Source: Enterococcus innesii (lineage in GTDB: Bacteria > Bacillota > Bacilli > Lactobacillales > Enterococcaceae). Taken from it: DNA of 64,000 nt. Below, one piece after another: positions 48,636 to 62,218 of this stretch. The stretch's first letter is position 1. Each line of letters begins with the position of its first letter. Where the stretch lies: the NCBI GenBank assembly GCA_018982785.1, contig JAHHEN010000004.1:315001-379000 (forward strand). Direction: 5' to 3'. The position numbers and the translations under genes were made by a program. The notes under the pieces were generated by a model, which saw only the letters and a program-made list of their open reading frames with translations, made no database searches and had not been told where the DNA came from.

Positions 48636-50144
48636 TTATAGTGTCACGCCATTTTTAAAGATGGCGATCTCACGAACGTTGTTGGCTTCATTACGCGTCG
48701 GTTTTCCACTGGCAGTATCGATGATCGCTTGAATAAAGTCTTCCAGCACGACCTCCATCGGCTCTTCCAACAAGCGACCGGCGTTGAAATCCATCCAGTG
48801 GGGTTTCTTATGGTAAATCTCTTGATTCGTGGCAACTTTCATGGTCGGCACATAGGCACCAAATGGCGTGCCGCGACCCGTGGTAAATAAGACGAGTTGG
48901 CAATCGGCAGAAGCCAGTGCAGAAGCGGCAACAAGGTCGTTTCCTGGACCTTCCAGCAGGCTCAAGCCTGGCTTACGGAGTTTCTCCCCATATTTTAAGA
49001 CATCGACGACAGCGGAAGTCCCAGATTTTTGGGTACAGCCTAATGACTTATCTTCTAGTGTTGTGATGCCGCCTGCCTTATTGCCAGGAGAAGGATTTTC
49101 ATAGACCGGTTCACCGTAAGCAAGAAAATAATCTTTAAAGTCGTTGATTAGATGGAGGATTTTTTCAAAGGTTGCTTCATCTTGTGCACGCGCCATCAAG
49201 ACTTGTTCAGCGCCAAACATTTCGGGTACTTCCGTCAAGACCGTACTGCCACCTTGAGAAACTAAAAAGTCAGAAAATGCCCCCAACAAAGGGTTGGCGG
49301 TGATCCCAGAAAACCCGTCGGACCCCCACATTTTAACCCGATCTTTAGCTCACTCAAGGGAACGGCTTCTCGTTGATCCTCTTTTGCTGCTTCCAGTAAT
49401 TCTTCTAATAAGCTTTCGCCGACCGCAATTTCATCGTCGCTTTCCTGTGCCACCATAAATTTGACGCGCTTTGGATCGTAGTCACCCAGGTTTTTCTTAA
49501 ACTCGGGAACGGTGTTGTTCTCACAACCTAAGCCAAAGACCAAGACGCCACCGGCATTTGGATGATGCACCGCATCAATTAAAATTTGACGAGTGTTTTG
49601 ATGATCTTGGCCTAACTGGGAGCAGCCGTAGGGATGTTTAAGGATCGTAATATGATCAAACGTGCCAAGATCTGGATGATTCTTCTTGAAGTTTTCAACA
49701 ATGATCTCTGCGATGCCATTGATGCAACCAACTGTTGGTACGATCAGTAAATCATTCCGAATCCCAACTTTGCCATTCGCCCGACGGTACCCTTGGAACG
49801 TCGCAGCCCTTTTGGATAACGGACGGGATGCAAATCGGGGGCATAGGTGTATGCTAAGGTACCAGAAAGGTTGGTTTTGACATTGTGGGTATGCAACCAT
49901 TGGCCGGTTTTAACGTTAGCTAAGAGATGTCCAATGGGATAGCCGTATTTGATCACGTCTTGTGATTGTGCTAGATCTTTGAGGGCGATTTTGTGTCCTT
50001 GCGGAATATCCTCAAAAGGGTGATCGTTTGGCCTTCAAATGCAAGGGTCGTTTTAGCAGCTAGTGGTTTTAATGCGACTGCGACATTGTCTTTAGGGTGC
50101 AATTTCAATAGTTGCGCGGGCGTTTCTGTTAATGTGGTGGACAT
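48636..50144 (-). pseudogene. uxaA: Altronate dehydratase UxaA, three frameshifts
   Basis: 503 residues when corrected; dehydrates D-altronate to KDG. N-terminal SAF-like domain ('HPKDNVAVALKPL', 'GHKIALKDLAQ', 'THNVKTNL'), then the large UxaA domain ('GYRRANGKVGIRNDLLIVPTVGC', 'HPYGCSQLGQDHQNT', 'GLGCENN', 'LKCGGSDGFSGITANP', 'TGRGTPFGAYVPT'). Breaks lie at A4 50014-50017, AA 49797-49798 and C5 49323-49327 (plus-strand letters); each is mended by one added base. ATG 50144 follows AAAGGAGA. The repeated homopolymer losses argue for sequencing error. Confidence 0.9.
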
Positions 50145-51630: not shown

Positions 51631-52611
51631 TTACAGCGATTGACGAATGATTAACGAGGTATCAAAGAAATGTTGTTTCTCAACTACTTGATTGGCAAAT
51701 GCTTGCAACAGCAGAGTTGCTGCCAATTGACTCATTTCATAAACTGGTTTGCGGATCGTTGTTAATGGGGGATACGTATAGGGAGAAAAAGAACTATCAT
51801 CAAAACCGATGATACCGATCTCCTCTGGGATCTTTCGTCCTGCTTGATGACAGGCATTGATCGCACCGATCGCCATATCATCATTGGCGCAAAAAATCAC
51901 TTCAGGTGGTTCAGGTAAAGCGAGTAGTTGCTGGGCACCCAGCTGACCACTTTCCAAAGAGTAGTCGCCAGCTACGAAGTATTCTTTCGGGCAGACAAGC
52001 TGCTTTTCTTGAATCGCTTTCATAAATCCTTTACGACGCTCTCTAGCGGAACCAAAGGAAGCGATCCCTTCAATCATGGCGATCTTTCGAAAGCCTTGTT
52101 CAAGCACATAGGTGATCATTTGATAGACCCCTTGGGCATCATTACTAGTGACATTCATCAAGGTTGCATCCTGCAATTGACGATTCAAAACGACGATGGG
52201 AATGTTTTTCTTTGAAAGAGCAGCAATAAAGCCGTCATCCCGATCACTTTGACTCATCACGATCGCTCCATCTAAACGATTCGGCTCTTCATCAAATGTA
52301 TCGGATTGCAATAATTCATGAACCGCTAAAGTATATTCGGATGGTAGGGTATCACTGATTCCTTTGATCACTTCGACTAAAAAGCTATCGGAAGTACCAA
52401 TGGATAGATGAGAAAAATAAAGACCAATGATATAGGATTTTTGATTCACCAGACTTTTGGCATTGACATTGGGCACATAGTGTAAAGATTCAGCGATGGC
52501 TGCGATCTTCTTTTTTGTTTCTGGCTTAATTAATGGGCTATCGTTTAACGCACGAGAAACAGTTGTATGTGAAACACCAGCGACTTTGGCGATATCTTTG
52601 ATCGTGACCAT
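51631..52611 (-). CDS. LacI family transcriptional regulator of the galacturonate genes
   Basis: 326 residues: HTH 'VTIKDIAKVAGVSHTTVSRALND' with hinge helix 'LHYVPNVNAKSLVN', then a full sugar-binding-type domain. It lies between uxaB (same strand, downstream) and the divergent AraC gene. Matching ATGCACACGT elements lie on both sides, before uxaB and in the lacI-araC gap, so it is the likely repressor of the uxa operon and of itself. No enzyme domain; effector (galacturonate, tagaturonate or KDG) unknown. Confidence 0.9.
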   Translation of the reverse strand: MVTIKDIAKVAGVSHTTVSRALNDSPLIKPETKKKIAAIAESLHYVPNVNAKSLVNQKSYIIGLYFSHLSIGTSDSFLVEVIKGISDTLPSEYTLAVHELLQSDTFDEEPNRLDGAIVMSQSDRDDGFIAALSKKNIPIVVLNRQLQDATLMNVTSNDAQGVYQMITYVLEQGFRKIAMIEGIASFGSARERRKGFMKAIQEKQLVCPKEYFVAGDYSLESGQLGAQQLLALPEPPEVIFCANDDMAIGAINACHQAGRKIPEEIGIIGFDDSSFSPYTYPPLTTIRKPVYEMSQLAATLLLQAFANQVVEKQHFFDTSLIIRQSL

Positions 52612-52773: not shown

Positions 52774-54987
52774 ATGAAATTCTTTTTAAGCTATCATCAA
52801 ACGTCCAACTTGTTCTATAAAATTTTCATTTGGGTCTCTTTGATTGGTAGCGCTTTAATTGTCGGCTTTAGTGGAGTCATTTATCATCGAACGTATCAAA
52901 ACATTCAAGAAACCTTTTTGCAAAGTCAACATAATTTGGTCAACCAAGTCAAACAAAATCTGGATCAAAAAATTCAGATGGTGGAGTATGCCTTTTCTAC
53001 ATATAGCAGTACTCAAAGTTTTTCCGATACGATGGAACAGCCGTTTTCCGTGACGAATTATCGACAAGTGCGCGAGATCAATTCGCAACTGGCTTACATT
53101 GGTGTGATGGGGATCGAAAACGCCAGCTACCAATTGGTGAATTTGAATCAGCATTGGAAAATCGAAGAAGGCTCCTTAAAACAGATCGATGATACTGAAT
53201 TCGCTGCTTTTCAAGCGTTGATCGACAACCAACGCTACTTGTATTGGTTGCCAGAAGATGGCTATTTAAAAATGGTGATGACGCTGCCTGTGTTTCGACA
53301 GGAAACCACTGCTTTGGGGATTGCTGAAATCCAAGACCATACCATTGCGCAGTTGGTGGCAGATCATGACGATTCGTTTTTGAATATTTTTCATGCGGAT
53401 GGACAACTGCTTTTCGATAATGGTGAAGTGATCGATTCTGACTTACACGAAACAATGATCGCAGCTGCCCACGGCGATGGCATCTTCACTGACAAAGAAA
53501 ACAACAAGTATGTGGTCACACAATCGGATTACAATCAGTGGTATCATGTGATCCGTCTGGCGCCAGCCAGTGTTTCGCAAGCAATTCGTGAGTTAAGAAG
53601 CGGTTTGATCGTGATTGGTAGTCTATTGATTTTCCTGTTTTTATTAGTATCTTATCGCATTGCGATCGTGGCTACTTCACCCATCAATCGGATCGGAGAG
53701 CTTTTAAAGCCCAAAAAACAAGGTCAAAAATTAGAAGTCAATCAATTGATTTCCGATATCGACCAAGTCTTGCATCAAAACCATGATCTTGCTGTTAAAG
53801 TTGAACACCAAAAGCCCGAGTTAGAATCTTTGTTTTTATTAAACTTGTTTCGCGGCTGTATCTCAGAAGCAGATATTCACTTAAAACTGTCACAATTTGG
53901 GTATGAAGTACCCGAAACGGAACACTTTGCCGTATTACTGATTCAAATCGATGATTTGTGTGGGCGAGAAACAGCGACCAGTGATATTTTCTTGCTTGCC
54001 ATTGAGAATCTCGTTTCTGAGATCATTCCGGCGAATTTGCGTTTTCAGCCAATCATCTCTAGTCAAGAAACCCAAGGAACGATTTTAAAACTTCCGAAAA
54101 CGATTGATCAAAAACAAGTATTGACCTATTGTCAAAAGATCCATCAAGCGGCAAAAGACTATTTAAGAATTAAAATAAGTTGTGGGGTCTCACAATCCTA
54201 CGACCGCCTCGTAGAAACCAAACTAGCGGTTGATAACGCCAAAGAAGCCTTGCACTATCGAATGAATTTAGGGGAAGAAGTCATTATCTTTTTTGACGAC
54301 ATTGCGGCACAATTGGACAATAACGCGATCGTTCAATACCCTAGAGAAGCAGAAAGTACCTTTTTGGATGCGATGCGTAGTGGGGAGCTAGCGACCATCA
54401 AAGCGAGTTACACGGAAGTTGTACGAGAAATCATCCATGAAAATAAAAATCCGTTGACGATTGAAAGCGCCTTGTTTAAGTTGATCAACAGTATCGTTCA
54501 GCTAGGGCAACTCTTAGGAGCAGATCATACCAGCTTGCAAAATAGTCGTAAAGTTTATCAATCCGTGCTCAACCAAACCAGCTTAGTCAAAGTTGAGCAA
54601 AGCATCTATCAAGAGTTAGTTTTACCTATCGTTGAAACGACACAAGCCAAAACAGATCGAGAAATTCGCTCCTTGTCTGAAAAGATGGTCTTGATCGTAC
54701 ACCAACAATACGATCAGGATCTTTCCTTAGATAGCATTGCTGAACAGCTGCATTATAATGCCAATTACTTAAGTAATGTGTTTAAAAAGGAATTATCCAT
54801 CAATTTTGCCGATTACTTACAAAACTATCGGTTGCGAATCGCCAAAAAATGGTTGCGGGAAACGGATATGACGATCAAGGAAATCGCAGCCAACCTTCAA
54901 TATACCAACTCTCAAAACTTCATTCGCTTTTTCAAAAAAAAAGAACAGATGACGCCCGGAGAGTATCGCAAACGTTCCAAAGAATAA
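52774..54987 (+). CDS. Membrane-bound AraC family regulator with extracellular sensor
   Basis: 737 residues. Helix 1 (about 15-38), an extracellular Cache-like domain (about 40-270), helix 2 (about 275-297, 'LIVIGSLLIFLFLLVSYRIAIV'), a linker and GGDEF-like fold remnant (about 370-500, 'HFAVLLIQIDDL'), then a C-terminal AraC DNA-binding domain (about 640-735, 'LSLDSIAEQLHYNANYLSNVFKKE', 'TIKEIAANLQYTNSQNFIRFFKK'). This one-component design (YtdP/YesS-like) senses sugars outside and activates pectin genes. It lies 60 bases from the divergent ABC permease locus, its likely target. Confidence 0.88.
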   Translation: MKFFLSYHQTSNLFYKIFIWVSLIGSALIVGFSGVIYHRTYQNIQETFLQSQHNLVNQVKQNLDQKIQMVEYAFSTYSSTQSFSDTMEQPFSVTNYRQVREINSQLAYIGVMGIENASYQLVNLNQHWKIEEGSLKQIDDTEFAAFQALIDNQRYLYWLPEDGYLKMVMTLPVFRQETTALGIAEIQDHTIAQLVADHDDSFLNIFHADGQLLFDNGEVIDSDLHETMIAAAHGDGIFTDKENNKYVVTQSDYNQWYHVIRLAPASVSQAIRELRSGLIVIGSLLIFLFLLVSYRIAIVATSPINRIGELLKPKKQGQKLEVNQLISDIDQVLHQNHDLAVKVEHQKPELESLFLLNLFRGCISEADIHLKLSQFGYEVPETEHFAVLLIQIDDLCGRETATSDIFLLAIENLVSEIIPANLRFQPIISSQETQGTILKLPKTIDQKQVLTYCQKIHQAAKDYLRIKISCGVSQSYDRLVETKLAVDNAKEALHYRMNLGEEVIIFFDDIAAQLDNNAIVQYPREAESTFLDAMRSGELATIKASYTEVVREIIHENKNPLTIESALFKLINSIVQLGQLLGADHTSLQNSRKVYQSVLNQTSLVKVEQSIYQELVLPIVETTQAKTDREIRSLSEKMVLIVHQQYDQDLSLDSIAEQLHYNANYLSNVFKKELSINFADYLQNYRLRIAKKWLRETDMTIKEIAANLQYTNSQNFIRFFKKKEQMTPGEYRKRSKE

Positions 54988-55047: not shown

Positions 55048-55933
55048 TTACCCTTTGACGGAACCAACCATTGCCCCTTTCACGAAATACTTCTGAACAA
55101 ATGGATAGGCGATCAACATTGGCAGCGTCGCAACGACGATCACGGCCATTTTTACGGATTGTGCTGGGGGACAACATCGACACTCGCGGCATCGGCGTTC
55201 ATCCCGCTGGAGACGATCACGATTTGTCGAAGGAGCACTTGGATCGGCCATTTCGCTGAATCATTGATGTACAAAATCGCTGATTGATAAGTATTCCAAT
55301 AACTAACAGTGTAGAACAAAGAGATCGTCGCAATCGATGGTAAGGAAAGGGGTAAGATGATACGGAAAAAGACGCCCCAATCAGAGCAACCATCCATTTT
55401 TGCGGATTCTTCTAAACTATCAGGAATTCCTTGGAAAAAGTTTCTCATAATGATCATATTATATGCACTGATCGCACTCGGTAAGATCAGTGCCCAGAGA
55501 GAATCGATCAAGCCGAGGCTTTGTACCAAAATAAAACTTGGGATCATCCCACCGCTAAACAACATGGTAAATACGACAATAAAGTTGAAGATGCCGCGTC
55601 CATGCAAATATTTTCTTGAAAGAGCATAGGCCATAAAAGAGGTCAAGATCATTGAAAGAACTGTTCCGACGATGGTCACAAAAGGGAAACACCAATACTG
55701 GTAAAAATCGTGGGTGTCGAGAGAATATACCGGTAAGCATTTAAGCTAAATTCACGAGGGATAATGATAAATGTTCGTGTTGCGATCTCAGAAGAAGAAG
55801 CAAAGGAGCTTCCGAGAATGTTTAGAAAAGGTAAGAGACACGTTAAGGTGAAGAGTAGTAGAAAGCCAATAATAAATCCTTGAACGACCCGTTCACTTTT
55901 CGGGCGGTTCGTTTTTTTCAGGGTTTGTTGCAT
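55048..55933 (-). pseudogene. ABC oligosaccharide permease, YtcP/LplC-like, two frameshifts
   Basis: 295 residues when corrected. Six helices, EAA loop 'EESAKMDGCSDWGVFFRIILPLSLP' and C-terminal 'FVQKYFVKGAMVGSVKG' as in YtcP. Breaks are at A4 55680-55683 (one more base gives GVSLFVTIVGTVL) and G5 55166-55170 (gives VDVVPPAQSVKMAV), plus-strand letters. ATG 55933 follows GGAGGT. It is transcribed away from its presumed partner permease at 56193, and no solute-binding protein lies beside it. Confidence 0.85.
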
Positions 55934-55995
55934 AGAAAAAACCTCCATCTTTTTTTACTTAAATAGGTACTTCCAACGTATCATGAGGCGGGGAC

Positions 55996-56135
55996 AACGT
56001 ATATAATCACTTTTACATGTTAAAAAAATCACAATCATGACAAACGTTGGTAAATCAAGGATTATCCAATTCGACTGCGAGATAATCCTAAAAAATGTAT
56101 GCCTTTTCAAAGCTGAGAAAATGATTATATACGTT
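55996..56135. promoter_or_regulatory. Symmetric divergent promoter region of the ABC permeases
   Basis: AACGTATATAATCA (55996-56009) recurs exactly in inverted orientation at 56135-56122. Each copy contains TATAAT with no clear -35. Between them AGGATTATC / GATAATCCT (56058-56066, 56081-56089) forms another palindrome. The layout suggests activator-dependent promoters, perhaps for the AraC protein. Confidence 0.55.
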
Positions 56136-56192
56136 ATCTTTTTTTCACGCTACCATGGGACTATCAAATCAAAAAAATTCGGAGGAACAAGT

Positions 56193-57179
56193 ATGGAAAC
56201 AAAAGTTGATAATTACTTCTCACCACTAAATGAAGAAGAACAGCGGCTGCGGCTGAAAAAGAAAAAATGGGCGCAAATCAGAAAAAATCGTGCCCTCTAT
56301 ATTATGGTATTGCCGGGGATTTTATATTTTCTTATTTTCCGTTACATACCGATGGGCGGGTTAGTCATCGCTTTTCAAGACTACCAACCATTCTTGGGGA
56401 TCCTAGGAAGCCCCTTTGTTGGCTTCACTCATTTTATTCGGCTCTTTACTGAAGATACTTTTGTGATGTTGATGCGCAATACATTGATCATGTTCTTCTT
56501 AAATATCACGATTTCCTTCCCTTTTCCTATAGTATTGGCACTTATGCTAAATGAAGTAAACAATCGCCGTTTGAAAAAAGGGATTCAAACCATCATTTAT
56601 TTGCCTCATTTTATGTCGTGGGTCATCGTTGTTTCCATCTTCTATGTTTTATTAACGACAGAAGGTGGTGTGATCAATAACATGATCGAAAGTCTTGGTG
56701 GCGAACGTATCCCGTTTCTAACAAGTCGCACGTGGTTGCGTCCAATGTACATTTTCCAAGACCTTTGGAAAGGTGCCGGTTGGGGGACGATCGTTTATCT
56801 AGCCGCTATTACCAATGTTGATGAACAGCTTTATGAAGCGGCGGATATGGATGGGGCTGGCAAGCTACGAAAAATGTGGCATATCACATTGCCTTGTATT
56901 CGTCCGACGATCGTAACCTTATTGATTTTAAAGATCGGTTCAATCTTAGATATGGGCTTTGAGCATATGTTCTTGTTGATGAACTCAATGAACCGTGAGG
57001 TTGCCCAAATCTTTGATACCTTTGTCTATACCGCCGGGATTCAAAATGGTCAATTGAGTTACTCGACAGCTGTTGGGCTGTTTAAAGGACTTGTTGGCTT
57101 GATTCTTGTCATCTTTGCCAATCGTTTGGCGAAAAAATTGGTGAAGACGGGATTTATTAAGAAAGAAGGGATCACATGA
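56193..57179 (+). CDS. ABC oligosaccharide permease, LplB/YteP-like
   Basis: 328-residue six-helix permease. 'RYIPMGGLVIAFQDYQPFLGI' is the LplB/YteP signature and 'YEAADMDGAGKLRKMWHITLPCI' the EAA loop. ATG 56193 follows GGAGGAAC; upstream in-frame codons lie in the promoter region. It overlaps the next gene by 4 bases. By position it imports oligogalacturonides or rhamnogalacturonan fragments; the ATPase and binding protein must be elsewhere. Confidence 0.9.
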   Translation: METKVDNYFSPLNEEEQRLRLKKKKWAQIRKNRALYIMVLPGILYFLIFRYIPMGGLVIAFQDYQPFLGILGSPFVGFTHFIRLFTEDTFVMLMRNTLIMFFLNITISFPFPIVLALMLNEVNNRRLKKGIQTIIYLPHFMSWVIVVSIFYVLLTTEGGVINNMIESLGGERIPFLTSRTWLRPMYIFQDLWKGAGWGTIVYLAAITNVDEQLYEAADMDGAGKLRKMWHITLPCIRPTIVTLLILKIGSILDMGFEHMFLLMNSMNREVAQIFDTFVYTAGIQNGQLSYSTAVGLFKGLVGLILVIFANRLAKKLVKTGFIKKEGIT

Positions 57180-57853
57180 CGATCGAAAAGATCACGAAAA
57201 TCAACGAAGGATTACTCGCATTTTTGACGCTGATCGCCCTTCACTTTCTTTGGCTCAGTGTGACTCTCCTGGGAGGCATCCTCTTTGGCATTGGCCCTGC
57301 GTCGTATGCCATGATGAAATATTATGATCGCTGGCTTCGTCTTCATGAACGACCGCCTTTGATCAAAAGTTTTTTCTACTATAGTAAAGAACGGTTCCGG
57401 CAATCGGTGCTAATCAGTTGGTTGTTTTTGATTATCGCAGCAATCGTGATCACCAATATATTTGCGCCATTTCCATGGTTTATCCAAGTGGCGAATGTCC
57501 TCTTTTTGATTGCGTTTCTCTTTTTATTCATGCACGTGTATACCGTCATGGCAGCCACCAACTTTGTGACCGTGTTTGAGATCCTGCGGGGGAGTGCGTT
57601 ATTAGGTTTAGGCTATCTGCATTATTCGATCATAAGTTGGACGATTTTGATCGTTGGCTATTTAGTCCTGGGCAGTTATTTCTTGATCGGCCTCTTTTTG
57701 ATGGGTAGTAGCTTAGTTGGTGGTGTTTTTGCCCTTGCTGGTAAAAAAATTCTTCAAGATATCCACCCAATTGAAACAGATCAGGTGGTTTCAAAAACGG
57801 CATCGACTACGGAGCAAACCGTTGCCAGTAAAGGAGATGAGGTCATTATCTAA
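57176..57853 (+). CDS. YesL-like (DUF624) membrane protein
   Basis: 225 residues, five to six helices, start 'FLTLIALHFLWLSVTLLGGILFGIGPASYAMMKYYDRW' typical of DUF624. ATGA overlap with the permease gene. The family is found with pectin and xylan importers; role unknown. A Ser/Thr/Lys-rich cytoplasmic tail ends it. Downstream, 57854-58018 holds no terminator I can recognise, so read-through into the GH105 operon is possible. Confidence 0.85.
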   Translation: MTIEKITKINEGLLAFLTLIALHFLWLSVTLLGGILFGIGPASYAMMKYYDRWLRLHERPPLIKSFFYYSKERFRQSVLISWLFLIIAAIVITNIFAPFPWFIQVANVLFLIAFLFLFMHVYTVMAATNFVTVFEILRGSALLGLGYLHYSIISWTILIVGYLVLGSYFLIGLFLMGSSLVGGVFALAGKKILQDIHPIETDQVVSKTASTTEQTVASKGDEVII

Positions 57854-58018
57854 AGAAAACGGCTCAAAGACTTTTACTGGTTCGTGAACAAAACGGTCAC
57901 TAGAGAACACCTGGAAATAGCAAAACAAGCTGAACCCTCATGAAATACAGCCAGTAAAACAGATTCATTGAAACAGCTCTATGAATTGAGGAGACTACAA
58001 TAAAAGGAAGTATCGTAC

Positions 58019-59140
58019 ATGAAGAACTATTCGGAAATTGCTTTGAACACGTTATTTGAGCGCTATGACTACTTATGCAAAGAAAAAATTTATCACGGAA
58101 AATGGTCCTATGACATCGGGGTTGTTTTACAAGGCGTGAAAGAAGCCTATGAACAGACTGGTGACAAACGTTATTTCGACTATATCCAAAACACGATGGA
58201 TTTTTATATTGACGAAGACGGTCGTATCAAAAATTATCAGATGGACGCGATGAATATCGATTACATCAATAATGGCAAATGTTTATTCTTACTATACAAA
58301 GAAACAGGTGTTTCAAAATACAAGATCGCCTTGGACACGCTTTATCAACAATTACAGCAGATGCCAAGAACAAGCGAAGGCGGGTTCTGGCATAAAAAAA
58401 TCTATCCATATCAAATGTGGTTAGATGGCTTATATATGGGAGCCCCATTTTTGACAGAATACGCACTGACATTTAAGAAAGCAGAAGCATTGGCAGATGT
58501 CATCAAGCAATTCACCTTATGCTTTAAGCATACCCTAGATCCAAAAACGGGTCTTTTGTATCACGCGTGGGATGAACAAAAAGTCCAGCCGTGGGCAGAT
58601 CCTGAGACTGGTTGTTCAAAAAATTTCTGGGGACGGTCAATGGGATGGTTCATGATGGCACTCGCAGATACGATGGTGCTATTAGGGGAATCAGAGCAGA
58701 AGAATTCGTTAGAAAACATGTTTGTCTCCTGTCTAGAAGCTCTTGCTAAAGTAAGAGATCCCCAGAAAAAAGTGTGGTATCAAGTCTTAGATAAAGGCAG
58801 TGAGCGTGGGAATTATTTAGAAGCATCCGCTTCTTCAATGATTTGTTACGCAACAGCGAAAGCAGTCAAAGCAAGGATCATCGATCAAAAATGGCAAGTG
58901 TTTGCCCAAGAGACCTATCAAGGATTGCTGGATGAGTTTGTCTTTTTAACAAAAGAAGGCTGGTTGAATCTGATCAGAAACTGTGAAGTTGCTGGTCTTG
59001 GTGGACCAGATAATCGGGATGGTACGTTTGTTTACTATATCAGTGAACCCGTTATCACGAATGATTTCAAAGGATACGGTGCCTTTTTACAAGCGAGTTT
59101 ACTGCTGCAACCACTTACGGAGGAAGGAAGCAAGAAATGA
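58019..59140 (+). CDS. Unsaturated rhamnogalacturonyl hydrolase, GH105
   Basis: 373-residue (alpha/alpha)6-barrel enzyme of the YteR/YesR type that removes the unsaturated galacturonate from lyase-cut rhamnogalacturonan by vinyl-ether hydration. Hallmarks are 'YQMWLDGLYMGAPFLTEY' and the catalytic Asp in 'LLYHAWDEQKVQPWADP', plus 'WGRSMGWFMMAL'. No signal peptide, so cytoplasmic. Its product feeds KduI. AAAAGGAAG precedes the ATG; it heads an operon of overlapping genes running past the window edge. Confidence 0.93.
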   Translation: MKNYSEIALNTLFERYDYLCKEKIYHGKWSYDIGVVLQGVKEAYEQTGDKRYFDYIQNTMDFYIDEDGRIKNYQMDAMNIDYINNGKCLFLLYKETGVSKYKIALDTLYQQLQQMPRTSEGGFWHKKIYPYQMWLDGLYMGAPFLTEYALTFKKAEALADVIKQFTLCFKHTLDPKTGLLYHAWDEQKVQPWADPETGCSKNFWGRSMGWFMMALADTMVLLGESEQKNSLENMFVSCLEALAKVRDPQKKVWYQVLDKGSERGNYLEASASSMICYATAKAVKARIIDQKWQVFAQETYQGLLDEFVFLTKEGWLNLIRNCEVAGLGGPDNRDGTFVYYISEPVITNDFKGYGAFLQASLLLQPLTEEGSKK

Positions 59141-60453
59141 ATATCCAATTAACTACAGCTGATTTACAAGGAAAAGAAGGTCTGTTGACAGAAGCGATTC
59201 AAGAAAAAATTGATGAATTGCATCAACAAGGAGGAGGCAGAATCACTTTTTCTGCAGGACGCTATCCGACAGGTGCGCTCTTTTTAAAAAGTAACATTGA
59301 ACTGCACCTACTATTGGGGGCGACCTTATTATTTTCTGATGATCCCAAAGACTATCCCGTCGTCGTGTCTCGCTGGGAAGGGGTCAAACGGGAAGTTTAT
59401 GCCTCTTGTTTATATGCCGAGAATGCGGAAAACATCGCTGTCACAGGACTAGGAATGCTTGATGGACAAGGGCAAAGATGGTGGAAAACCTTTCGAGAAA
59501 ACCGTGAAGAGCTTGCTTATCCACGACCAAAATTAATCAGTTTTGACTCTTGCCAACAAATTACGTTGAAAGATATCCGTCTTGTCGATTCACCAAGTTG
59601 GACTGTCAATCCGATTCTTTGCCAAGATCTAACGATCGATAATCTTCGCATCAAAAATCCAGCGGATTCGCCAAATACGGATGGGATCGATCCTGAATCT
59701 TGTAAAAATGTCCGCATCAGTAACTGTCATATTGATGTTGGCGATGATTGCATCGCCATCAAATCAGGAACGGAGGACACTAAAGAACGGGTCGCCTGTG
59801 AGAATATCACGATCGTAAATTGCCATATGCTTCATGGGCATGGGGCAGTCGTTCTAGGGAGTGAGATGAGCGGCGATATTCGTAATGTCACCATCAGTAA
59901 TTGTATTTTTCAAGATACCGATCGTGGGATTCGTTTGAAATCCCGTCGTGGACGTGGCGGAACGATCGAAGATATTCGAGTGAATAACATTGTGATGGAT
60001 AATGTCATCTGTCCATTCACTTTAAATCTTTACTATTTCTGTGGACCGAAAGGCAAAGAGAAGTATGTTTGGGATAAAAATCCGTACCCGATCAACGAGG
60101 AAACCCCTCATTTCCGGAGAATCCATTTTGCAAATATCTCGGCTCGGAATGTCCATGCGGCCGCTGGGTTTGTTTATGGCTTGGCTGAACAATTTATTTC
60201 AGATATCACTTTCCAAGATATTGCTGTCTCTATGGCTGAACATCCAATTCCAGGAAAGCCTGCAATGATGACAGGTATCGAAGAGATGACAAAACAAGGC
60301 TTTTATATTGGCTGTGGACGGAATATTCAGTTTGATCGTATCAATTTGGAAGGCGTAACTGAAGCGTTCCATATCGAGAATAGTCGGGAAATCACCGTCA
60401 CACAGTCATTTGAGAATCGTCAGCCTCTGGCATTTCAAGGAGATTTTTTGTGA
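59137..60453 (+). CDS. Polygalacturonase-type GH28 hydrolase
   Basis: 438-residue right-handed parallel beta-helix. The GH28 active-site motifs are in order: NTDGIDPESC, GDDCIAIKSG (the Asp pair), HGHGAVVLGSEMSGD with the His, and RGIRLKSRRG. No signal peptide, so an intracellular exo-type enzyme on imported oligogalacturonides or rhamnogalacturonan is likely. ATGA overlap with GH105 upstream and GTGA overlap downstream indicate one transcript. Confidence 0.93.
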   Translation: MNIQLTTADLQGKEGLLTEAIQEKIDELHQQGGGRITFSAGRYPTGALFLKSNIELHLLLGATLLFSDDPKDYPVVVSRWEGVKREVYASCLYAENAENIAVTGLGMLDGQGQRWWKTFRENREELAYPRPKLISFDSCQQITLKDIRLVDSPSWTVNPILCQDLTIDNLRIKNPADSPNTDGIDPESCKNVRISNCHIDVGDDCIAIKSGTEDTKERVACENITIVNCHMLHGHGAVVLGSEMSGDIRNVTISNCIFQDTDRGIRLKSRRGRGGTIEDIRVNNIVMDNVICPFTLNLYYFCGPKGKEKYVWDKNPYPINEETPHFRRIHFANISARNVHAAAGFVYGLAEQFISDITFQDIAVSMAEHPIPGKPAMMTGIEEMTKQGFYIGCGRNIQFDRINLEGVTEAFHIENSREITVTQSFENRQPLAFQGDFL

Positions 60454-61340
60454 GGGATCCTCAGTTACTTCAGCTGCTAGGTCCTGATATGAAAGTTGCA
60501 CCACAAGTGGTTCAGCAAACAAAAGAGCAGGTGCAAAATTATACCTTGGAACATTTACTTCTACGATTAAATCAAGAAGAAGATGTCCCTGCTTACTTTG
60601 CTTATCCTAGCTCTCAGCAACCTGTTCCACTCGTTTTGTTCAATCATTCTCATGGCGGTGACTTCACGATAGGGAAAGAAGAACTTCGGCAAAGTCCGCC
60701 TTATATGCAAAAGGAAAGCCTATTCGCTGCATTTATGAAGCTGGGCGTCGCTGTTGGGGTGATCGACATGTGGGGCTTTGGCGAACGAAAAAATGGTGAA
60801 AATGATAGCTACAAGCGATTTCTCTTGCAAGGCAAAACGTTATGGGGGCAGCGAATCTATGACAATCAACAGTTTTTGACCTATCTTGCTTCCCGCAAAG
60901 AAGTGAAACATTCCGCTATCGCCACATTGGGACTTTCCATGGGCGGCTTGATGAGTTGGTGGTTGGCAGCGCTTGATGAACGGATATCAGTGGTGGTGGA
61001 CATGGCAGCACAAGTGGACTATCAAGCATTGATCGAAGAGGACCGTCTAAGCAAACATGGGTTTTACTATTATGTTCCTAATGTGTTGAAAGACTTTACG
61101 ACTGCGGCGATCCAAAAACAGATTGTACCACGCCCGCGTTTGAGTTTGGTTGGCAAAAAAGATCGTGGATGCCCCTCAAGCGGCGTCGCTCGTTTGGATC
61201 AACAGGTCGGGCAGCATTATGAAGCAATGGGCTACAAGGAGCATTGGCAGGCGCGCAGCTTGCCAGGTGGTCATGAAGAAACCAAGGAGATGAGAGCGCA
61301 GTGGATCGAATTTCTAAAACAGCACCTCCTATCAAGCTAA
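60450..61340 (+). CDS. Alpha/beta-hydrolase, possible pectin-oligomer esterase
   Basis: 296-residue serine hydrolase fold. Nucleophile elbow GLSMGG (Ser about 174), oxyanion region 'VLFNHSHGGDF', and a final His in PGGHEET; the acid residue is likely the Asp of GKKDRG. No signal peptide. It starts with GTG overlapping the GH28 stop (GTGA), 6 bases behind AAGGAG. In a pectin operon it may remove acetyl or feruloyl esters, but nothing in the sequence fixes the substrate. Confidence 0.82.
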   Translation: MRDPQLLQLLGPDMKVAPQVVQQTKEQVQNYTLEHLLLRLNQEEDVPAYFAYPSSQQPVPLVLFNHSHGGDFTIGKEELRQSPPYMQKESLFAAFMKLGVAVGVIDMWGFGERKNGENDSYKRFLLQGKTLWGQRIYDNQQFLTYLASRKEVKHSAIATLGLSMGGLMSWWLAALDERISVVVDMAAQVDYQALIEEDRLSKHGFYYYVPNVLKDFTTAAIQKQIVPRPRLSLVGKKDRGCPSSGVARLDQQVGQHYEAMGYKEHWQARSLPGGHEETKEMRAQWIEFLKQHLLSS

Positions 61341-62218
61341 AGGTTAGTAAAGACCCGCAAAAGGGTGATTTTACGAGTATCCAAGCAGCTGTGCTGGCTG
61401 CTGAAGCCTTAAACGCACCTTGTGAGATCACGATCGCCTCTGGCGTGTACCAAGAACAGGTGAAAATCTATAAAAACCAGCTTACGTTGATCGCGGAACC
61501 CAACACGTTCTTATGCTACCACTTGGCTGCCGAGCAAACCGATGAGAATGGGCAAAAAAGAGGAACCTTTCAAACAGCGACGCTCTTTATCAATAGCCGA
61601 GAAGTCTTTGTAAAAAACCTGACCATCATCAATGACGCAGGGTATGGGCAAGCAGTCGGGCAAGCAGTTGCCGTCTATATCGAAGGGGATGACATTCGCT
61701 TCGAACACTGTCATCTCGATGCTTTTCAAGATACCTTGTGCCTGGGACCATTGCCAAAATATACCAAAGAGGGCGAACCAATGAACAGTCCTTGGCGAAA
61801 AACAATCTTTGACCAACAACAGAGTTTGTTTTTGCATTGCAGGATCAGTGGAACAGTCGATTTTATTTTTGGCGGTGGTTCCGCCATCTTTGAAGAGTGT
61901 CGCTTGCATTGTAAAAATACACTACAAACGAACTACATTACTGCTGCCTCAACTAGCAAACAAGCAAGCGGGTTAACCTTCGATCGGTGTCGGGTGACAG
62001 GGGACAAAGTCTATTATTTAGGCCGTCCTTGGCGCAATGACGCCAAAGTCACCTTTTTATCCTGCTGCTTTGATCAACAGCTCGTCCCTTGCGGCTGGTC
62101 TGATTGGGGAAAAGCAGCAAGCCACCAAACGGTCGCGTTCACGGAGCGAATGTGTTGTTACCAAAGAAGTCCCCAACGTCCTGAATGGGTGACTATCGAA
62201 GGAGTGATAGAAAAATGA
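61301..62218 (+). CDS. Pectinesterase, CE8
   Basis: 305-residue beta-helix pectin methylesterase. Catalytic motifs are intact: 'GQAVAVYIEGDDIRF', DAFQDTL with the first Asp, GTVDFIFGGG with the second Asp, and YLGRPWRN with the Arg. It removes methyl groups from homogalacturonan. No signal peptide, so it seems to act on imported oligomers. GTG 61301 lies inside the end of the previous gene (40-base overlap), and GAGATGAGAG is a weak ribosome site, so translational coupling is likely. Confidence 0.92.
   Translation: MDRISKTAPPIKLKVSKDPQKGDFTSIQAAVLAAEALNAPCEITIASGVYQEQVKIYKNQLTLIAEPNTFLCYHLAAEQTDENGQKRGTFQTATLFINSREVFVKNLTIINDAGYGQAVGQAVAVYIEGDDIRFEHCHLDAFQDTLCLGPLPKYTKEGEPMNSPWRKTIFDQQQSLFLHCRISGTVDFIFGGGSAIFEECRLHCKNTLQTNYITAASTSKQASGLTFDRCRVTGDKVYYLGRPWRNDAKVTFLSCCFDQQLVPCGWSDWGKAASHQTVAFTERMCCYQRSPQRPEWVTIEGVIEK

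Follow-up and report, generated by a model that had tools for sequence, protein, structure and literature searches.

What directs the transcription of two importer permease genes that stand head to head in Enterococcus innesii, and what part is played by a 14-mer that occurs once on each strand of the gap between them? The window (the whole 64,000-nucleotide stretch analysed here) contains AACGTATATAATCA exactly at 55996-56009 (+) and 56122-56135 (-), a separation of 112 bp, in a gap limited by the lplC start at 55933 (-) and the lplB start at 56193 (+). The initial annotation had drawn attention to this arrangement, and it holds: the window has no further exact copy, and none appeared in 100 dinucleotide shuffles. 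The exact pair is beyond chance. Allowing up to three mismatches gave six matches in the window against 6.1 expected, which shows no excess and means that the signal lies in the exact copies.

The gap lies in a region devoted to the import and breakdown of pectin. The permease names lplC/ytcP and lplB/yteP are those that we assume to apply.

51631-52611: LacI-family gene, beyond the AraC-family gene.
52774..54987, plus strand: AraC-family regulator with a predicted extracytoplasmic dCACHE-like sensor, the proposed activator (from Pfam, co-occurrence and a model).
55048..55933, minus strand: lplC/ytcP-like ABC permease, in three frames here and intact in the near relative G001.
56193..57179, plus strand: lplB/yteP-like ABC permease, first gene of the pectin operon.
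57176..62218, plus strand: rest of the lplB cluster within the window, comprising a DUF624 protein, a GH88/GH105-type hydrolase, a GH28 protein, an alpha/beta hydrolase and a pectinesterase.

The closest named relatives belong to Enterococcus. A solute-binding-protein gene follows the lplB cluster just outside the window. On the other side, lplC and the regulator gene face each other end to end, and beyond the latter, near the LacI-family gene, are genes that in part we presume to belong to the uronate pathway. The three frames of lplC result from two single-base indels relative to G001, which are likely to be assembly errors. The gene at 48636-50144, presumably altronate-dehydratase-like, was matched piecewise in three frames and is a single ORF in locus L051; the split ORFs 28010/29434 and 39784/40329 look similar, and the assembly seems rich in indels.

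Seventeen divergent lplC/lplB gaps, chosen by permease, were drawn from the Enterococcus group, Jeotgalibaca, Lapidilactobacillus and two Paenibacillus. Both boxes are present in all 17 when up to three mismatches are allowed, and the comparison of relatives that the initial annotation had itself proposed thus upholds the conservation of both copies. With one locus near-identical to the window's genome (L040) dropped, 16 loci and 32 sites remain, the outward consensus of which is (AAA)TGATTATATACGTAAT. Most striking is the sequence TAnnnT, which lies exactly 15 bp outward of the 14-mer in 31 of the 32 sites (at the left site of L070 it lies one base further out), and which is never found in more than two sites at any other outward offset from 0 to 35, nor in more than three at any inward offset. 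It is often preceded by TG, with the T in 18 and the G in 25 of the 32. The offset was first spotted by eye in eight loci; in the eight outside this set (L041, L043, L045, L052, L053, L056, L070 and L072) it holds for 15 of 16 sites. Mean pairwise identity between loci is 87% for the box, compared to 39% for the spacer and 40% for the 20 bp upstream; the box is therefore conserved far beyond its surroundings.

The presence of TAnnnT at a fixed 15 bp on the outward side implies that the box occupies the -35 region of a promoter directed outward and is not itself a -10 element. The predicted layout of the gap is given below.

55942..55946, minus strand: Shine-Dalgarno GGAGG of lplC (from the sequence; start codon at 55933).
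Near 55968, minus strand: predicted start site of lplC.
55975..55980, minus strand: TACGTT, predicted lplC -10 element, separated from the box by 15 bp.
55996..56009, minus strand: left activator box, outward TGATTATATACGTT, at the predicted -35 position of the lplC promoter.
56096..56109, plus strand: degenerate cre-like (CcpA) site, 26 bp before the right box, with the central CG changed.
56122..56135, plus strand: right activator box, TGATTATATACGTT, at the predicted -35 position of the lplB promoter.
56151..56156, plus strand: TACCAT, predicted lplB -10 element, separated from the box by 15 bp.
Near 56163, plus strand: predicted start site of lplB.
56181..56185, plus strand: Shine-Dalgarno GGAGG of lplB (from the sequence; start codon at 56193).

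Transcripts from these start sites would carry leaders of approximately 35 and 30 nt, without any overlap. The outward promoters appear to have no -35 element of their own: the best outward -35 hexamers are close to chance (a mean of 2.9 mismatches, compared to 3.0 at random positions), and a scan for consensus sigma-70 promoters found two sites against 1.4 in shuffles, neither of which uses a box. The initial annotation had remarked on the missing -35 boxes, correctly, and had suggested that the promoter elements need an activator, which the missing -35 makes the likely reading. It had also named the outward direction as a possibility, while preferring the inward one. Where AraC or RhaS of E. 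coli acts as a class-II activator, its site overlaps a poor -35 at a fixed distance from the -10. The gap resembles this arrangement, with a conserved site over a non-consensus -35 and a fixed -10 spacing; it differs from E. coli in having one strong box, no clear second half-site and an activator that is predicted to be membrane-anchored.

To what extent does the box occur outside divergent gaps? A scan of 96 loci for the core (with up to one mismatch), made without requiring a -10, recovered 55 boxes in 28 loci. TAnnnT stands at the set offset in 48 of these, lies only one base further in four and is missing from both positions in three. Of 43 sites obtained with seven control cores, none had it at that offset. 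In 11 of the 55 boxes TAnnnT is also seen at offset 12, counted from where the box begins; at this position it overlaps the end of the box itself. An ORF starts 35-250 bp downstream of 50 of the 55 boxes, but the same is true facing the other way for 42, many gaps being divergent; nearness of a start alone thus gives no direction, and the argument for direction is carried by the single-box loci and by the -10.

Among 70 non-divergent loci, box-plus-TAnnnT (up to two mismatches) was absent from 60, and most Paenibacillus among these box-less loci have a distant AraC homologue. The remaining 10 loci hold 12 such sites, compared to 0-2 for each of eight shuffled cores, and their boxes mostly stand alone and point at a binding-protein gene. 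Eight of these loci are of Paenibacillus type with adjacent permease genes; here the box, approximately 1.8 kb upstream of lplB, is directed at the gene that precedes lplB; an ORF starts 73-81 bp from the box in six of the eight, and in L095 and L110 the mechanically assigned ORF start overlaps the box. The gene faced by the box encodes a solute-binding protein in all three loci examined for this (L093, L098 and L115). Loci from a Sporosarcina and an Arthrobacter likewise have an exact box before a solute-binding-protein gene, with TAnnnT one base further. Single boxes that face one gene indicate a one-gene module and not an antisense device.

The proposed activator is the product of 52774-54987. 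It matches Pfam HTH_18 (E 3.3e-22) and HTH_AraC (E 4.1e-15) and thus has the C-terminal double helix-turn-helix of the AraC type, a region that is strongly conserved across 33 homologues. A model of the regulator (from six sequences) resembles in fold both dCACHE sensor domains and the C-terminal AraC domains of YesN and AraT; its mean pLDDT is 74.6 and its pTM 0.37, values at which the arrangement of domains is not reliable. The Pfam dCache_1 match is below the cut-off (E 0.85 here, 8.2e-07 in L070). From these data the protein would be a membrane-anchored sensor-activator, the ligand of which is presumably a pectin fragment.

The distribution of box and regulator points the same way. Within the order, 295 genomes were sampled evenly from a larger group: the exact box with the -10 pattern occurs in seven and the AraC-type protein (at E 1e-80 or better) in 13, and all seven fall within the 13. 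Were the genomes independent, the probability of this overlap would be approximately 5e-11; such independence does not hold. The other six genomes with the regulator include five with variant boxes in the locus and one (G139) with only a weak box (three mismatches). The 17 divergent loci had been chosen by permease, and an AraC-type gene is present in 16; in the exception, L053, it is on another contig and not in the locus. Ten further loci (L174-L183) were chosen by the AraC gene itself, which means that its presence there proves nothing; the boxes found there do count, and nine of the ten have them at up to two mismatches. Judged from sequence, the promoters are very probably driven by the neighbouring AraC-type regulator.

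Taking these results together, we hold it highly probable that the two 14-mers are activator boxes of back-to-back promoters that point outward and serve the permease genes of a pectin-oligosaccharide importer under the neighbouring AraC-type regulator. With its dCACHE-like domain the regulator would detect an extracellular pectin fragment, and with its two helix-turn-helix motifs it would bind each box. With each box overlapping a weak -35 region, and the -10 situated 15 bp beyond, the bound protein would recruit RNA polymerase in class-II fashion, and the lplC gene and the lplB operon would be induced together. The absence of the box from 60 of the 70 non-divergent loci counts slightly against this reading. 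The proposed switch is of an ordinary kind with an unusually clean box.

The explanation offered by the initial annotation is a different one. It took TATAAT in each 14-mer for an inward -10, from which two complementary leaders of about 180 nt would arise and balance the two permeases. There is some reason to consider it: the inward TATAAT is exact in 27 of the 32 sites, and inward -35 candidates within two mismatches occur in 15 of 32, compared to 24% of random gap positions. The quality of the -35 thus partly favours inward promoters, and we reject them on the offsets of TAnnnT and the conservation of the gap. The exact TATAAT is part of the box itself, the conserved partner of which is the outward -10, and this fixed -10 accounts for the conserved positions; the excess of inward -35 candidates we attribute to the reverse complement of the outward TGnTA, and weak inward transcription could still take place. 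Overlapping, complementary leaders would not arise from outward starts, and the distance between boxes varies (66, 66, 88, 90, 112, 118, 126, 126, 128, 132, 135, 141, 148, 148, 153 and 170 bp in the 16 loci). A role in balancing the permeases is most likely wrong, given that the box occurs singly elsewhere, facing one gene, where an inward transcript would run away from that gene. The 9-bp inverted repeat that the annotation placed in the overlap is real (56058-56066 / 56081-56089) but is not kept in G001, where, read from the sequences, six of the nine positions still form Watson-Crick pairs. All 10 differences between G001 and the window's genome (G000) fall between the boxes, where they disrupt the repeat, with zero in the 77 and 74 bp outward of them; in more distant pairs the inner part of the gap is not consistently less conserved. 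Rfam gave no match at the gathering score for 55700-56400. Antisense control of the excludon type rests on overlapping divergent transcripts, and the locus shares the divergent gene pair; here the promoters most likely point apart and there would be no overlap. We regard the inward model as highly unlikely.

Two further possibilities retain the outward promoters or the paired boxes and differ in what binds them. It is improbable that the box belongs to another regulator, either the LacI-family protein of 51631-52611 or a different AraC-type protein, acting on the same outward promoters. The LacI-family gene is near the AraC-type gene in many loci; however, LacI-type operators are palindromes with a central CG, and the box is no such palindrome. 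At the search threshold LacI is missing from L047, L048, L052 and L053 (some of which are on short contigs) and from seven of the ten loci L174-L183, whereas AraC is in 16 of 17 loci chosen by permease and boxes are in nine of ten chosen by AraC. A LacI operator consequently fits less well than an AraC one. A case can also be made for a single operator, of which each box forms one half; a regulator dimer would join the two, and the resulting loop would control both genes together. Loop formation is known from AraC-family proteins, and two near-identical inverted boxes in one gap would suit such a design. Yet the spacing varies between 66 and 170 bp and some boxes have no mirrored counterpart, and we consider this model very unlikely.

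The proposed activation by the AraC-type regulator can be set beside known systems of the Bacillales. We take YtdP of B. subtilis to be the AraC-type counterpart of the window's regulator, and YtcQP-YteP to be the counterpart of its importer. The likeness of ytcPQ-ytdP-ytePRSTUV is one of description: the two importer permease genes flank another gene (ytdP); the gene order differs from that of the window. RhgR is also a member of the AraC family, and its regulon, again by description only, resembles the window's system in substrate theme. The YtcQP-YteP importer is described as taking up polygalacturonan and rhamnogalacturonan (PMC5730181), YteR as an unsaturated rhamnogalacturonyl hydrolase, compared with GH105 (PMC4528949), and RhgR as controlling rhamnogalacturonan utilisation genes (PMC3870299). 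According to the title of a 2022 study cited in PMC12632257, RhgKL and CcpA regulate the B. subtilis operon containing rhgR, CcpA directly.

AraC-family regulators of rhamnose genes are described as recognising direct repeats with a 21-bp period (PMC3870299). The window's box differs in lacking a second full copy, and a direct repeat of this period was not found across the loci, the 20 bp upstream of the box being only 40% alike between them. A 21-bp repeat in the window, CAACGTAT, was considered as the operator and rejected: it falls on the -10 and is no general feature of the other loci. No published motif matching the box was found in open-licence PubMed Central listings, where a full-text search for its letters returned one unrelated yeast paper only; the box may already be listed in Leyn et al. 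2013 or in regulon databases. The analysis provides a precise putative operator, a predicted promoter pair and a candidate regulator for the import of pectin oligosaccharides by lactic-acid bacteria and related groups. It also illustrates how a conserved element can mislead when it contains a strong TATAAT: comparison reversed the likely direction of both promoters.

Repression may be superimposed in part of the relatives. Matches to cre-like sites of the TGNAANCGNTNNCA type number 55 in the 17 gaps (both strands, L040 included), compared to a mean of 15 and a maximum of 30 in base-shuffled gaps. A site 26 bp before the right box occurs in nine of 16 loci, the window's included, and one 40 bp past the beginning of the left box in five of 16; such fixed offsets are seen in part of the relatives (the related loci L041-L056). 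Through these sites CcpA may act as a repressor in some relatives, and the window's own site looks decayed.

The box type is seen from Enterococcus-group bacteria and some Paenibacillus to a Sporosarcina and an Arthrobacter. It is conceivable, although improbable, that box and 15-bp-spaced -10 together are the undescribed signature of a family of membrane-anchored dCACHE-AraC activators; such an activator would hold the gap at the membrane, and transcription and insertion of both importer halves would then share one place. Actinobacterial relatives of the importer (L058-L069, L071, L073, L074 and L127), in which lplB is about 64-70% identical and the permease genes lie several kb apart, gave no AraC-type homologue at the threshold used.

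How specific is the pattern within genomes? In the window, the box with its -10 at up to three mismatches gave two sites, both exact, with 1.3 expected, and in 12 genomes all 21 exact matches of the spaced pattern are in the lplC/lplB gap. The window's own genome has one more exact copy of AACGTATATAATCA, at C12:87564 (L003, C12:86064-89077), flanked by a phospholipase-D-type gene and by a gene for a DNA photolyase, the latter being the one it faces, approximately 270 bp away. At the position expected for TAnnnT it has TAACTC. G001 also has the photolyase, and none of its six pattern matches (up to two mismatches) is on the photolyase contig; this copy was therefore dismissed as a regulon site and is taken to be due to chance. 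A copy with one mismatch (C7:450661) sits inside a permease ORF, and a near-identity search of plasmids gave no match. L179, L180, L181 and L182, which belong to other families within the order, have three or four listed boxes each (up to three mismatches) that face different ORFs, and the regulon may be larger in these genomes than in the window's genus; the box listings for L179-L182, as for L174-L183, were partly selected for TAnnnT, the unselected counts being those of the 55-box scan.
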